Positions 31,269 through 38,344 of a stretch of 64,000 bases of DNA are shown here, in pieces. The stretch covers positions 2,170,001 to 2,234,000 of the forward strand of contig CP048485.1 in assembly GCA_025560025.1 (NCBI GenBank), given 5' to 3'. The notes under the pieces are model-generated. The model did not search any database. It was not told where the DNA came from and was given only the letters and a program-made list of their open reading frames with translations. Position 1 is the first letter of the stretch. Each line of letters opens with the position of its first letter. This DNA is from Agrobacterium tumefaciens. GTDB lineage: Bacteria > Pseudomonadota > Alphaproteobacteria > Rhizobiales > Rhizobiaceae. The position numbers and the translations under genes were made by a program.

Positions 31269-33869
31269 ATGGCAGACAAGAGCGAAATCACACAGACCGA
31301 CCTCGCAGAATCCGCGGTTGAAAGCTTCTTTGCCAGAAACCGACCCTATCTGACCGCGATCGCCATCACACTGGTCTTCGTGATGATGACCTTCGCCATT
31401 TATCACCTGACGTCGGAAGTCCGCTATGACGATGTCATCGACGCGCTGACGCAGACCTCGACCTCCGCGGTCCTGCTCGCCATCGTCTTCACGGCGCTCA
31501 GCTTTTTCGCGCTGATACTCTACGACGCCAATGCCATCGAATATATCGGTCGCAAGCTGCCGTTTCCGCCCATGGCGGCAACCGCCTTTGCTGCCTACGC
31601 CATCGGCAATACCGCCGGTTTCGGACCCTTGAGCGGCGGCGCAATCCGCTTTCGCGCCTATTCGCGGCTTGGGCTTTCACCCGGCGAAATCGCCCGCGTC
31701 ATCGCCTTCGTCACCCTGTCCTTCGGGCTTGGTCTGCTTTCGGTCAGCGCCATCTCCACCTTCATCGTCGCACCGCGCATCGCCTCCATCATCGGCGTCG
31801 ATGCCCTGATCCTCAGAGGGGCCGCGCTGGCCGTCATCGCGGCGCTTGTCATTGCGGCCTATATCGGACGCAACGGCCACACGATCAAGCTTGGCGCCTG
31901 GCGTCTGCGCCTCCCGGACAGCCGCACCTCTTCCCGCCAGTTCCTCGTCTCGGCCTTTGATATCGCCGCCTCCGCCTCCGTGCTTTACGTGCTCCTGCCC
32001 GACACCCATCTCGGCTGGCCGACATTTTTCGCGATCTACGCCACCGCCGTCGGCCTCGGCGTCCTCAGCCATGTGCCGGCCGGTCTCGGCGTCTTCGAAA
32101 CCGTAATGGTCGCAGGGCTCGGCAACGCCATCAGCGTTGACCAGCTGCTCGGAAGCCTCGTGCTTTACCGCGTGATCTATCACGTCCTGCCGCTGGTGGT
32201 CGCCATTCTGGTGATGCTCGTTTCGGAGATGAAGCAGTTTGCGGCAAAGCCTGTTGTCTCCGACATCAGCCAGCTTGCCGTGCGCCTTGCCCCGCCGCTG
32301 CTATCAACCTTCGCGATGATCCTCGGCACCATGCTGATCTTCTCGAGCGTGACGCCAACGCCGGACAGCAATCTGGATTTCCTGTCCAATTTCGTGCCGC
32401 TGCCGATCATCGAGGCGGCGCATTTTCTCACCAGCATTCTCGGCCTCGTGCTCGTCGTCGCCTCGCGCGGCCTCGGACAGCGGCTGGACGGCGCCTGGTG
32501 GATCGCGCTGGTCGCCGCGTCGCTGGCGCTGGTTCTCTCCCTCCTCAAGGCCATCGCGGTTTTCGAAGCTGCCATTCTCGGTGTCTTCATCGCCGCCCTT
32601 GCCGCCAACATGCGCAGCTTCAATCGCCATGCCTCGCTGGTGAAACAGGCGCTGGGGCCAAGCTGGCTTGCGGCCATGGCGGTCATCGTCGCGGGCGCGG
32701 CAACCATTCTGCTCTTCGTCTATCGCGATACGGATTACAGTCAGACATTGTGGTGGCAGTTCGAATTCTCCGAGGAAGCGCCGCGCGGATTGCGCGCCCT
32801 TCTCGGCCTCGTGCTCGCCTCCTCCACAATCGCCATCTTCAGTCTCATGCGGCCGGTGGCCTACAGGCCGGACGCAATCGAGGCCGACGACGTGGCAAGC
32901 GCCACCGACATCGTGCTGAAACAGGACGCGGCCGACGCCAATCTGGTGCGTATGGGCGACAAGCACGTGATGTTCTCGGAAAGCGGCAATGCCTTCATCA
33001 TGTATGGTATTCAGGGCCGCTCCTGGATCGCCTTCGCCGATCCCGTCGGCGACGAGGAGGATTTCCCCGATCTGGTCTGGCAGTTCGTCGAAGCCGCGCG
33101 TTCGGCGGGCGCACGCGCCGCCTTTTACCAGATTTCGCCTTTCCTGCTCTCCCATTGCGCCGATGCGGGCCTGCGCGCCTTCAAGCTTGGGGAACTGGCG
33201 CTGGTCGATCTCACCGCCTTCGAGCTGAAGGGCGGCAAGCTTGCGACCCTTCGCCAGTCGCTGAGCCGCGGTGCCCGGGACGGGCTGAGCTTCGAGGTCG
33301 TCGAAAAGGCGCATGTGGCGGATATTCTGGACGAGCTGAAACAGGTCTCCGACAGCTGGCTTGCGCATCACAACACACGGGAAAAGCGCTTTTCGCTTGG
33401 CGCTTTCGAGCCGGATTACATCCTGTCGCAGCCCGTCGCCGTATTGCGCAAGGATGGAAAAATCACCGCTTTCGCCAATCTGATGGTAACGGACACGAAA
33501 AAGGAAGCCACCGTCGATCTCATGCGTTTTTCGCCGGATGCGCCGCGCGGCGCGATGGATTTTCTCTTCGTCAGCATCATGCAGCATCTGCGCGAGGCTG
33601 GATATGAAAGCTTCAACCTCGGCATGGCGCCCATGTCCGGCATGTCGAAGCGTGATGCGGCGCCGGTCTGGGACCGCATCGGCAGCACGCTGTTCGAACA
33701 CGGCGACCGTTTTTACAACTTCAAAGGCCTTCGCGCCTTCAAGGCGAAGTTCCACCCGAAATGGGAACCCCGTTACCTCGCCGTGCAAAACGGTGCGGAC
33801 GCCGCTCTGGCGTTGATGGATGCGACGGTTCTGATCAGCGGCGGCGTCAGAGGAGTGATCGGAAAATGA
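31269..33869 (+). CDS. lpiA: Lysyl-phosphatidylglycerol synthase (MprF/LpiA)
   Basis: Bifunctional inner-membrane protein of 866 residues. The N-terminal half (about 20-520) holds many TM helices of the flippase domain. The C-terminal half (about 550-860) is the GNAT-like domain that transfers lysine from Lys-tRNA to phosphatidylglycerol (FVSIMQHLREAGYESFNLGMAPMSG region). In Rhizobium tropici lpiA is induced by low pH and lies in an operon with the acvB homologue atvA. Here its stop overlaps the acvB start by four bases. The 279-base gap upstream contains GGAAC at 31075, which may belong to an ECF-type promoter, but the -10 match is poor. Confidence 0.93.
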   Translation: MADKSEITQTDLAESAVESFFARNRPYLTAIAITLVFVMMTFAIYHLTSEVRYDDVIDALTQTSTSAVLLAIVFTALSFFALILYDANAIEYIGRKLPFPPMAATAFAAYAIGNTAGFGPLSGGAIRFRAYSRLGLSPGEIARVIAFVTLSFGLGLLSVSAISTFIVAPRIASIIGVDALILRGAALAVIAALVIAAYIGRNGHTIKLGAWRLRLPDSRTSSRQFLVSAFDIAASASVLYVLLPDTHLGWPTFFAIYATAVGLGVLSHVPAGLGVFETVMVAGLGNAISVDQLLGSLVLYRVIYHVLPLVVAILVMLVSEMKQFAAKPVVSDISQLAVRLAPPLLSTFAMILGTMLIFSSVTPTPDSNLDFLSNFVPLPIIEAAHFLTSILGLVLVVASRGLGQRLDGAWWIALVAASLALVLSLLKAIAVFEAAILGVFIAALAANMRSFNRHASLVKQALGPSWLAAMAVIVAGAATILLFVYRDTDYSQTLWWQFEFSEEAPRGLRALLGLVLASSTIAIFSLMRPVAYRPDAIEADDVASATDIVLKQDAADANLVRMGDKHVMFSESGNAFIMYGIQGRSWIAFADPVGDEEDFPDLVWQFVEAARSAGARAAFYQISPFLLSHCADAGLRAFKLGELALVDLTAFELKGGKLATLRQSLSRGARDGLSFEVVEKAHVADILDELKQVSDSWLAHHNTREKRFSLGAFEPDYILSQPVAVLRKDGKITAFANLMVTDTKKEATVDLMRFSPDAPRGAMDFLFVSIMQHLREAGYESFNLGMAPMSGMSKRDAAPVWDRIGSTLFEHGDRFYNFKGLRAFKAKFHPKWEPRYLAVQNGADAALALMDATVLISGGVRGVIGK

Positions 33870-35251
33870 GAAAACCCACCATCTTGAAGGCCGCGCTTGC
33901 CGCTTCCGCCCTGTTCGCTTCCTCGCTGTTCATGTCCAGCGCCGCCTTTGCGCAGGATAAGCCGGCCTATGAGACCGGCATGATCCCCTCCGAGCATATA
34001 ATGGTGCCGGATGGCGAAATTCTCGCCAGCGTCTTCCTGATTTCCGATGCTGACGGATGGACGCCTGCCGATGAGACCCGCGCCAAGGCGCTGGTGGAAA
34101 AAGGTGCCGCCGTGGTCGGTATCGATTTCAAGGAGTATCTGAAGGCGCTCGAGGCCGATGAGGACGAGTGCATCTATATGATCTCAGACATCGAGTCGCT
34201 CTCGCAGCAGATCCAGCGCACCGCCGGCACCAGCAGCTACCGCCAGCCCATCCTCACCGGCATCGGCAAGGGCGGAACGCTGGCGCTGGCAATGATTGCA
34301 CAGAGCCCGGTCTCCACCGTGCGGGAAGCCATCGCCGTCGACCCCAAAGCGGGCCTGCCGCTTGAAAAGATACTTTGCACTCCCGCCACCAAGGACAAGG
34401 TGGATGGTGAAACGGTCTATGGCCTGACCGACGGCCCGCTGCCTGCGCCCGTCAGCGTGCTGTTCACGCCCGCTGCGGACCAGAAGGGCCGCGATCACGT
34501 CAACGCGCTTGTGAAGCTGCATCCCGATATCGACGTGACGGATGTGACCGACAAGGCGGACGAGGTCCTGACCCAGACCCTGTCCGATCAGGTCGACGCC
34601 GCCGGCGATACCGACAGCCCGCTTGGCCTGCCGATCAAGGTTCTGGAAACAAGCCCTGTGATGGACACCATGGCGGTGATCTATTCCGGTGACGGCGGCT
34701 GGCGCGATCTCGATGAAGAAGTGGGCGGCGCATTGCAGAAGCAGGGCATACCCGTGATCGGTGTCGATGCCCTGCGTTATTTCTGGAAAGAAAAACAGCC
34801 ACAGGAAGTCGCAGGCGACCTCGCACGCATCATCGACACCTACCGCAAGGAATGGAAGGTTCGAAACGTTGTGCTGATCGGCTATTCCTTCGGTGCCGAT
34901 ATCATTCCGGCGACCTTCAACCTGCTGCCGGAACGCGCGAAATCGCATGTCGTACAGCTCACGCTCATGGGGCTGTCCACGGAGGTGGATTTCGAGATTT
35001 CCGTTCAGGGCTGGCTCGGCGTGGCCGGCGAAGGCAAGGGCGGCAAGACGGTTGACGACATCGCCAAGATCGATCCGAAACTGGTGCAGTGCATTTACGG
35101 CACGGAGGAAGAGGATGAAGACCCCTGCCCCGGCCTGAAGGCGAAGGGCGTGGAAACGCTCGGCATTGAAGGCGGCCACCATTTCGACGAGGATTACGAA
35201 GCGCTTGCCAACAGGATCGTGACATCGCTGAAGACCAGGCTTCCCAAATAA
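33866..35251 (+). CDS. acvB: AcvB, periplasmic lysyl-phosphatidylglycerol hydrolase (virulence protein)
   Basis: Periplasmic protein of 461 residues with a clear Sec signal peptide (cleavage after AFA, about residue 29). The C-terminal half is the VirJ-like alpha/beta hydrolase with nucleophile S341 in GYSFGAD and a late GGHHFDED. In A. tumefaciens, AcvB is needed for plant tumour formation and hydrolyses the lysyl-PG made by LpiA, which balances membrane charge. The ATG at 33866 overlaps the lpiA stop (ATGA). A longer open frame begins inside lpiA but has no signal peptide. telA follows after 233 bases. Confidence 0.93.
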   Translation: MRKPTILKAALAASALFASSLFMSSAAFAQDKPAYETGMIPSEHIMVPDGEILASVFLISDADGWTPADETRAKALVEKGAAVVGIDFKEYLKALEADEDECIYMISDIESLSQQIQRTAGTSSYRQPILTGIGKGGTLALAMIAQSPVSTVREAIAVDPKAGLPLEKILCTPATKDKVDGETVYGLTDGPLPAPVSVLFTPAADQKGRDHVNALVKLHPDIDVTDVTDKADEVLTQTLSDQVDAAGDTDSPLGLPIKVLETSPVMDTMAVIYSGDGGWRDLDEEVGGALQKQGIPVIGVDALRYFWKEKQPQEVAGDLARIIDTYRKEWKVRNVVLIGYSFGADIIPATFNLLPERAKSHVVQLTLMGLSTEVDFEISVQGWLGVAGEGKGGKTVDDIAKIDPKLVQCIYGTEEEDEDPCPGLKAKGVETLGIEGGHHFDEDYEALANRIVTSLKTRLPK

Positions 35252-35484
35252 ACTGACCAGACTGACTGCCCAGACTGGGGGCTTTCAGGCATCGCCGAAT
35301 GGCCGATGCGGTTCCAATACCTTGCCTGATGGTCCCCGCTTCGCGGCCATGCTTGCGGAATCGCTTAAAGTATTATTCAAAAGAAACCGGCCGGCGCTGG
35401 ATGTTCATGGTATTCCCGCAACCATGCTTCTGTTGATTGCCAACCATAGATTTATATTTCCCGACCGGTTCAGGGAGCCGCCGC

Positions 35485-36807
35485 ATGTCCACGTCAAAAA
35501 GAAAGACAAAAACACCAGTTCTCGTGGAACGGATCGATCAATTCGTCGGCCGGGTCAGGGAGGCGATGAAAAGCGACGACACCTTGCGAAACCGGAAAAT
35601 CCGCGATCTGTGGGATGCCGAGGTTCGCTACCATTTCGACAATGGCCGCACGGAAAAAACGCTTGAACTTTACATCATGAAATATCGCTATGCCCTGAAG
35701 GCTGAATTCGGCCCAAAGAGCACGCCGCTTGCCATCTGCAACATGAAAAAGCTGCGCGAGCGGCTGAACGCCTATATCGAGCGGGCGGACTATCCGAAAA
35801 CCGGCGTGGCGACATCCATTGTCGAAAAAATCGAACGGGCGGAATTCAACACCGCCGGTCGCAAGCCGACCGTTCTTCTACGCATCGCCGATTTCATTTC
35901 GGCGATGAACGGCATGGGTGCCAAAGAAGAGATGCAGGCTTTGTGGAACGCCGAAATCGACACCATGAAGGGCCGGGCGCAGACGACGATCATTTCCTAC
36001 ATCACGAAATATCGCAACGCCATCCGCGAAGCCTTCGGCGACGACCATCCGATGCTGAAGATCGCCACCGGCGATGCCGCCATGTATGAAGACGCCCGCC
36101 GGGTGAAGATGGAGAAGATCGCCAACAAGCATGGCGCACTGATCACCTTCGACAATTACCAGCAGGTTCTGAAGATTTGCGCCGATAAACTCCTGTCCGC
36201 CGATCCCCTCATGATCGGCATCGGCCTGATCGGCATGACGGGGCGACGCCCCTATGAGATTTTTACCCAGGCCGAGTTTTTCCCGGCGCCCTATGGCAAG
36301 GGCGTTTCCAAATGGAGCATCCTTTTCAACGGCCAGGCCAAGACGAAACAGGGCGAAGGAACGAAGTTCGGGATTACCTACGAAATTCCGGTTCTTGCCC
36401 GCTCCGCCACCATTCTGTCCGCCTATGAGCGCCTGCGCACGAGCGGGCAGGGAAAACTGTGGCACGGCATGTCGATCGACGATTTTTCGTCCGAAACCCG
36501 CCTGCTGCTGCGGGACACGGTCTTTAATCTGTTCGAGGATCTCTGGCCGCGGCAAGAACTTCCCAAGCCCTATGGCCTCAGACACCTATACGCCGAGGTG
36601 GCCTATCATAATTTCGCGCCGCCCCACGTCACCAAGAACAGCTATTTCGCCGCCATTCTCGGCCACAACAACAACGACCTCGAAACATCGCTATCCTATA
36701 TGACCTACACGCTGCCGGAAGATCGCGACGACGCGCTGGCACGGGCAAAGCGCACGAATGAACGGACATTGCAGCAAATGGCTGCCATCGCGCCCGTCTC
36801 CAGGTAA
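35485..36807 (+). CDS. telA: TelA telomere resolvase (protelomerase)
   Basis: Hairpin telomere resolvase of 440 residues, nearly the same as A. tumefaciens TelA (442 residues). It cuts a duplicated palindromic telomere with staggered nicks through 3'-phosphotyrosine links and reseals each strand into a covalently closed hairpin, finishing replication of the linear chromosome. All active-site residues fall at the published TelA numbers: R255 (MTGRRPYE), K286 (QAKTKQG), R366 (YGLRHLYAE), H394 (LGHNNND) and the nucleophile Y405 (SLSYMTY). The ATG at 35485 has GGGAG seven bases upstream; an in-frame ATG 16 codons earlier is less likely. The basic N-terminal and helical core regions (about 1-210) contact DNA. 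Confidence 0.96.
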   Translation: MSTSKRKTKTPVLVERIDQFVGRVREAMKSDDTLRNRKIRDLWDAEVRYHFDNGRTEKTLELYIMKYRYALKAEFGPKSTPLAICNMKKLRERLNAYIERADYPKTGVATSIVEKIERAEFNTAGRKPTVLLRIADFISAMNGMGAKEEMQALWNAEIDTMKGRAQTTIISYITKYRNAIREAFGDDHPMLKIATGDAAMYEDARRVKMEKIANKHGALITFDNYQQVLKICADKLLSADPLMIGIGLIGMTGRRPYEIFTQAEFFPAPYGKGVSKWSILFNGQAKTKQGEGTKFGITYEIPVLARSATILSAYERLRTSGQGKLWHGMSIDDFSSETRLLLRDTVFNLFEDLWPRQELPKPYGLRHLYAEVAYHNFAPPHVTKNSYFAAILGHNNNDLETSLSYMTYTLPEDRDDALARAKRTNERTLQQMAAIAPVSR

Positions 36808-36908: not shown

Positions 36909-38195
36909 TTAAGCTCGTCCGTCGTTGGACGTCCGGTAAAGCAGGGTCAGGACGGTCAGCGCCAGCCCCAGCAGCGCCACCGAGCCGAAAATGTAGAAGT
37001 TCCACTCAGGCGCCAGCCCCCGTTGCAGGACGAGGCCACCGATCATGGGACCGGCAATGCCGCCCAGCCGCCCGACTGCCAGCGAAAAGCCGAGACCCGT
37101 GCCACGAATATGGACGGGGTAAAGCCGTCCAACCAGAACATTGGCAAGAATCTGGGTTCCAATCGTTCCGGCACCGGCAAGGGCGACGAAGAAATAGAGA
37201 AGCGGCCCCTTGTTGACTGTCAGGGCCCAGATGGAGGCGGCACCGATGGCGAAGAGAACCGCCACGACCACCTTGACGTTCCCCTTGTCGGCAAAGCGTC
37301 CGCCCACGAGAATGCCGATCGCGGCCCCGACATTGAGCATGATCGAGAAGCTGAGTGCCGAGCTGATATCGTAGCCCATCTTGTTCATGATGGTGGGCAG
37401 CCAGTTGACCATGCCGAAGGTCAAGAGCAGCGAGCAAAAGTGAATGCCCCAGGCATTCAGTGTCGAAAGCAGCCGGCCTTCCGAGAACAGCGCACCAACG
37501 CCGCCCTTTTGAATTTTGGCATGTGGCACGATGCGTTGCAGGCCGTAGGTGTCGCAAATTCCGTCAGCTTCCGCCTGCCGGCCCTTGCTCGCCAGCCATT
37601 CCGGCGATTCAGGCAGGAACCGCATGAACAGCGGCAGAAGAATGAGCGGCAGGCCGCCGATCAGCATCAGCGGACGCCAGCCATAGCTTTCCAGAAGAAG
37701 GATGCCCATGAGGCCGGAAATGATGCCGCCGATAAGGTAGCCGAGGAACGACAGGGAATTTGCCTGCGCCCTGCGTTTGGGCGGCGAGAATTCCAGCACC
37801 AGTGCCGTCACCGTCGGCAGGAGAGCGCCGAGCCCCAGACCGGCGAGAAACCGCGTGATTTCAAAAGCGAGGAAGTTCGGCGTCATGGCCGAGGCGATCA
37901 TCATTGCTGAAAATCCGGCGAGGCTGATGAGAACGACCTTCCGGCGGCCGATGCGGTCCGCCATGGTGCCGGCGAATAATGCGCCGAGCAGCATGCCGAA
38001 CAGCGTCAGCGCCGCAGCCCGCCCAACCATGGCGGGATTGAGCGCCCATGCGCCTTCTTTCAGCAATGCCGGTGCAACCGCGCCGTAAACGACCAGATCG
38101 TACCCATCGAACATGATCATCAGACCGCATGTCGCGATGACGCCGGCCGGGTTCTTCGTCCGCACTGAAGCGGCGCTCATATAATTCGTGGACAT
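36909..38195 (-). CDS. graK: Aromatic acid:H+ symporter GraK (MFS)
   Basis: Inner-membrane MFS transporter of the aromatic acid:H+ symporter type (PcaK/BenK-like), 428 residues, 12 TM helices. The DGYDLVVYGAVAPALL of TM1 and motif A (GTMADRIGRRKV) are typical. Its place at the end of the gra cluster points to gamma-resorcylate uptake. The ATG at 38195 has GGGAGG upstream; the open frame ten codons further does not. A 220-base gap separates it from graE and holds a sequence shared with the graR-graD operator, so it may have its own promoter. Confidence 0.9.
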   Translation of the reverse strand: MSTNYMSAASVRTKNPAGVIATCGLMIMFDGYDLVVYGAVAPALLKEGAWALNPAMVGRAAALTLFGMLLGALFAGTMADRIGRRKVVLISLAGFSAMMIASAMTPNFLAFEITRFLAGLGLGALLPTVTALVLEFSPPKRRAQANSLSFLGYLIGGIISGLMGILLLESYGWRPLMLIGGLPLILLPLFMRFLPESPEWLASKGRQAEADGICDTYGLQRIVPHAKIQKGGVGALFSEGRLLSTLNAWGIHFCSLLLTFGMVNWLPTIMNKMGYDISSALSFSIMLNVGAAIGILVGGRFADKGNVKVVVAVLFAIGAASIWALTVNKGPLLYFFVALAGAGTIGTQILANVLVGRLYPVHIRGTGLGFSLAVGRLGGIAGPMIGGLVLQRGLAPEWNFYIFGSVALLGLALTVLTLLYRTSNDGRA

Positions 38196-38344
38196 ATTCC
38201 TCCCTTTCACGCATGACCGCGCCATCCGGAATGGATCGGCGTCTTCCCGTTCTTGCGATTGCTCCGTGGGTACCCGGCTTGCTCCACCCTGATGTGTGTC
38301 CCGCTCCTGTCAAGACACCTATCGCCGATATCACCCGTCTTCGA

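Follow-up and report, generated by a model that had tools for sequence, protein, structure and literature searches.

The telA Locus

The window, a 64,000-nucleotide stretch of contig C1 of the genome under study (G000:C1:2170001-2234000), carries an intact telA gene together with the features collected in Table 1. We read telA from its ATG to its stop codon. The mechanical frame starts at a TTG 48 bases upstream of this ATG, and homology to the TelA of strain C58 starts, counted from the ATG, at residue 3, with identical numbering. The top match of the product in the Protein Data Bank was protelomerase 4dwp (C58 TelA; E 2.9e-274), and it scored 127.4 bits against Pfam PF16684 ResT-TelK_cat (cut-off 27) and 850.6 bits against the NCBIfam equivalog NF052462 "telomere resolvase TelA" (cut-off 800).

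The original prediction had placed five active-site residues at the published TelA positions, and R255, K286, R366, H394, and Y405 are all there, exactly as expected and matching the list in a supplementary figure legend of PMC3558466. Y363 is kept as well, as are Y201 and R205, to which a passage of PMC3558466 assigns hairpin refolding, and the contact residue K208 named there. Overall, our TelA and that of C58 share 398 of 440 residues, and every catalytic and refolding residue is in register. The protein had also been called full length; the reading frame is indeed intact, but the product has 440 residues vs. 442 in C58, the final two being absent. Among named genomes, Agrobacterium genomosp. 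13 CFBP 6927 is the nearest by TelA; its telA and that of G026, a genome of the same species as ours with a TelA 99.8% identical over 440 aa, occupy one and the same contig position. The gene is almost certainly the orthologous TelA of biovar 1 complex Agrobacterium, the ordinary enzyme of this group, a judgment made jointly with that on its action in trans on contig C2 (below).

Table 1. Features in and around telA (window coordinates)
Feature	Position	Strand	Basis
lpiA (lysyl-phosphatidylglycerol synthase)	31269..33869	+	NCBIfam MprF equivalog 918.8 bits, cut-off 600
acvB (VirJ-domain protein)	33866..35251	+	VirJ domain 316 bits; start codon assigned from signal-like N-terminus
Conserved stretch upstream of telA (putative promoter and ribosome site)	35352..35484	+	Alignment of 8 loci
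telA, telomere resolvase (protelomerase)	35485..36807	+	440 aa, intact; homology, profile scores, residues
MFS transporter gene	36909..38225	-	MFS_1 158.6 bits; downstream of telA

As predicted, telA follows lpiA and acvB. The lpiA product is an MprF/LpiA-type synthase, and that of acvB is described in the literature as a lysyl-phosphatidylglycerol hydrolase. Each gene lies upstream of telA in 24 of the 25 named telA loci, lpiA-acvB not being found near telA in one of them. The distance from lpiA-acvB to telA is at most ∼310 bp in 12 of the 25 and 1.3-1.5 kb in another 12; L078, the single locus of the wider spacing that we looked at, has a 388-aa reading frame between acvB and telA. The MFS gene occurs in 9 of the 25 loci, directly downstream of telA in seven and ∼3 kb on in two, and as far as seen it has no functional link to telA.

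When 8 of the 25 named loci are aligned, conservation climbs sharply ∼130 bp before the telA start codon, and this stretch is likely to hold a promoter and ribosome site of telA’s own. A GANTC site at window position 35358 is invariant upstream of telA in all eight aligned loci; in Alphaproteobacteria, GANTC is the motif methylated in cell-cycle control. The window was also searched for a telomere-like target. A 24-base telomere tip, with up to three mismatches allowed, gave no match in the window, and the looser ATATCATGATAT, with two mismatches, gave two matches vs. 0.8 by chance, a number reached in 17 of 100 shuffles. On these results, we rejected a telomere-like target in the window, whether beside telA or at any other place.

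Replicons of the Genome and the Ends of C2

C1 (2,908,919 bp) opens with a dnaA reading frame, as a closed and rotated circle does. telA lies on this dnaA chromosome, as had been claimed, in ordinary chromosomal sequence and not at a telomere. repC was found on C2 (2,128,760 bp), C3 (386,412 bp), and C4 (252,582 bp). C3 and C4 open with a reading frame of ∼405 codons, with repC 2.5-2.7 kb further on, as circles opened at a presumed repA do. Unlike in C3 and C4, repC of C2 sits in the middle of the contig.

At its two ends, C2 carries an inverted repeat in which 613 of 699 columns are identical (88%; score 956; left 2-693 vs. right 181-871). The same comparison gave scores of only 21-23 for the ends of C1, C3, and C4 and at most 32 for 100 internal pairs. 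We compared the C2 ends with the chromid of G007, a C58-type genome whose TelA is the crystallized C58 sequence (442 of 442 residues) and whose chromid contig of 2,075,577 bp starts TGATATTGTTATTATGATCGATCG. The first base of the right end of C2 aligns with base 23 of the chromid contig of G007 (483 of 582 columns identical), and this end therefore stops 22 bp before the apex; by the offset of the inverted repeat, the left end stops ∼200 bp before it. The apex sequence had no match in our assembly or in that of the same-species G026, and we found no fold-back in the C2 ends, a result that fits an assembly which breaks off before the apex. Because the contigs end there, we infer the hairpins of this strain and do not read them. 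Judging from its end regions, C2 appears to be a linear replicon with telomere-homologous ends. A linear replicon elsewhere in the genome had been foreseen in the original prediction, and C2, whose inverted-repeat ends are homologous to the telomere region of a C58-type chromid, answers to it; of the terminal palindromes and TelA target expected on such a replicon, the inverted-repeat ends were found, and the apex palindrome had no match in the assembly, the contigs of which stop before it.

The length of the terminal inverted repeat varies among chromids: ∼700 bp (88% identical) in our C2, 286 columns in G027, 228 in G026 (with truncated ends), and 25 in G007. It is improbable that end-to-end exchange, or else fusion of the telomeres followed by re-resolution, made the chromid ends of this species alike over ∼700 bp and that telA can change replicons within larger blocks without loss, as G035 suggests. 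Telomere fusion would be a reverse reaction of TelA, one known from ResT. Plain recombination would do for both the likeness of the C2 ends and the relocation of telA, and nothing in these data ties TelA itself to either event.

Telomere Tips in Relatives

We next turn to the 28 ends of 14 chromid contigs, of which nine reach the apex: both ends of G007, G010, G027, and G032 and the left end of G008. The other 19 fall short, and chromid assemblies thus often stop before the hairpin. G007 starts and stops at the apex itself, and the other seven ends run through it, with perfectly palindromic arms of 11-80 bp. These read-through arms are centered on TCATGA, with lengths of 80 and 11 bp in G032, 65 and 40 bp in G027, 74 and 11 bp in G010, and 40 bp at the left end of G008. 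According to PMC3558466, the native overhang of the Agrobacterium chromosome is TCATGA.

The outermost TGATA-TGTTATT is invariant in 13 of 13 aligned tips, a set that includes draft contigs and was chosen for reaching the apex; outside it stand the apex palindromes of G001:C55, G012, G014, G017:C20, and G033, the left end of G038, and the right end of G034 (6 bases short, seven of seven matching). Where the aligned tips cross the center, it reads TCATGA in 10 of 11 and TCTTGA in one, G001:C1. This last tip (L024 1-88) is a read-through palindrome, and its TCTTGA center is either a true variant or a sequencing error. The left end of G038:C2 (L087 1-40), which lies only a base or two away from the apex, starts CGATACTATTATT, with two departures from the otherwise invariant telomere core.

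Distribution and Replicon of telA in the Genus

TelA was found in 38 of 39 genomes of the genus. The sole genome without it, G025, has no match to the right end of our C2 or to the apex, an absence that says little given that 28 of the 39 genomes have no match to this right end and 19 none to the apex. We used dnaA and repC to type 14 genomes. In 10 of these, telA lies on the dnaA contig; the other 4, namely G008, G010, and G038 (67-69% identical to our TelA) and G035 (92%), have it on the repC chromid. The replicon that carries telA varies within the genus, and its location therefore does not tell which molecule the enzyme serves.

Two genomes with an intact TelA, G035 and G023, have chromid contigs that show neither telomeric ends nor an apex match; a circular chromid, in spite of the enzyme, is one candidate reading of either genome. 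About 530 bp of a C58-type right-end query match the G035 chromid 59 kb from its left end, and similar ∼530-bp matches lie 6-128 kb from an end in G006, G016, G027, and G032. In our genome and G026, only 132 bp of this query match, in the middle of C2, which makes the G035 match weak evidence for a truncated linear contig. In G023, the sole match is 179 bp long and lies on the dnaA contig. Overall, telA gains support as a marker gene for the linear chromid of Agrobacterium, G035 and G023 being the two genomes without confirmation.

At L083 5945-7282 (G023:C1), telA of an 80%-identical clade lies on the dnaA contig in another context, away from acvB. Contigs C6 and C7 of G013 (L090 and L091) carry ten fragments that resemble TelA at 33-46%, facing both ways on each contig, in addition to the normal chromosomal telA of this genome; a linear plasmid whose hairpin was read through is a possible explanation.

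The chromid of G035 carries telA in a 43.5-kb block beside a tRNA-Val (L132-L134, G035:C2:1259667-1303225) that matches window positions 6864-50819. In a tree of 30 of the 38 TelA proteins (the other eight, all 67-68% identical, being without a fetched locus), G035 TelA is nested among genomes with chromosomal telA, as sister to those of G007, G017, and G027. Over the 400 kb compared in G035, only two further matches of at least 500 bp to our C1 were found (2.2 and 0.6 kb). Both flanks of the block map to C2 in our genome and to the chromid in G026, G007, G027, and G032, where they lie 79-116 kb apart in all five. Since the flanks are chromid sequence and the block is chromosomal in relatives, the block was most likely transferred from the chromosome to the chromid, either within a larger rearrangement or together with one; the alternative is an assembly error.

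Proposed Role of TelA

TelA made from the circular chromosome C1 would act on the linear chromid C2, that is, in trans, since its target lies on another molecule. A TelA dimer would bind the palindromic junctions that arise when hairpin ends are copied; Tyr405 would cut both strands at phosphates 6 bp apart around TCATGA, and the enzyme would then refold and reseal each strand, giving two hairpin ends per junction. These catalytic steps are transferred from C58 TelA, and the hairpin tips of our strain are likewise predicted ones. Action in trans was part of the original prediction, and the candidate C2, with telA on C1, lends it support. We hold it very highly probable that TelA from C1 has this predicted activity and seals the ends of C2; the deviating G038 tip, together with the undecided cases of G035 and G023, takes a trace off our confidence.

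A very unlikely alternative is that C2 is circular or open ended and that TelA is kept for single-strand annealing. TelA does anneal single strands in vitro, according to a passage of PMC7861564, and the hairpin tips are absent from our assembly. Against this reading, however, the ends of C2 are telomere-homologous inverted repeats located 22 and ∼200 bp from the expected apex, C2 is not opened before repC as C3 and C4 are, and TelA keeps all of the catalytic residues for resolution. That TelA serves a linear plasmid of its own genome instead of the chromid is scarcely credible: Rhizobiaceae linear plasmids with their own protelomerases are described in PMC13293297, but C3 and C4 start a few kilobases before repC and lack inverted-repeat ends, our genome has a single TelA match, and the linear-plasmid ends published in that paper have no homology to chromid ends.

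Comparison with Known Systems

A distant relative is Borrelia ResT, which shares the catalytic domain family (match to 8vs5, E 7.1e-7) and acts on other telomeres. Closer are the TelA proteins of the rubi/larrymoorei clade, which are 67-69% identical to ours, are encoded near lpiA-acvB, and go with a TCATGA-centered apex in G008 and G010, the two genomes with contigs that cross it. They differ in that telA is on the repC chromid in the three typed genomes (G008, G010, and G038), that acvB lies 1.3-1.5 kb upstream of telA, and that the G038 tip deviates.

The best match is the C58 system (A. tumefaciens/fabrum), which agrees in TelA sequence, numbering, and active site, in the position of telA on the dnaA chromosome after acvB, and in a homologous chromid end region. 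Our TelA differs from that of C58 by 42 substitutions over 440 aligned residues and by a C-terminus two residues shorter, and the chromid inverted repeat is ∼700 bp in our C2 vs. 25 bp in C58-type G007. The 25 columns that we found in G007 equal the 25-bp inverted repeat given for C58 in a passage of PMC13293297, which names Huang et al. 2012 as the source for the C58 system. Other passages of that paper mention a chromid whose inverted repeat spans ∼33 kb and report that A. divergens has no linear chromid. By their account, biovar 1 strains, C58 among them, carry telA on the circular chromosome, members of the rubi clade carry it on the chromid, and biovar 1 with chromosomal telA has a linear chromid. 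The combination of a chromosomal telA with a linear chromid is thus an arrangement already known and usual in the group.
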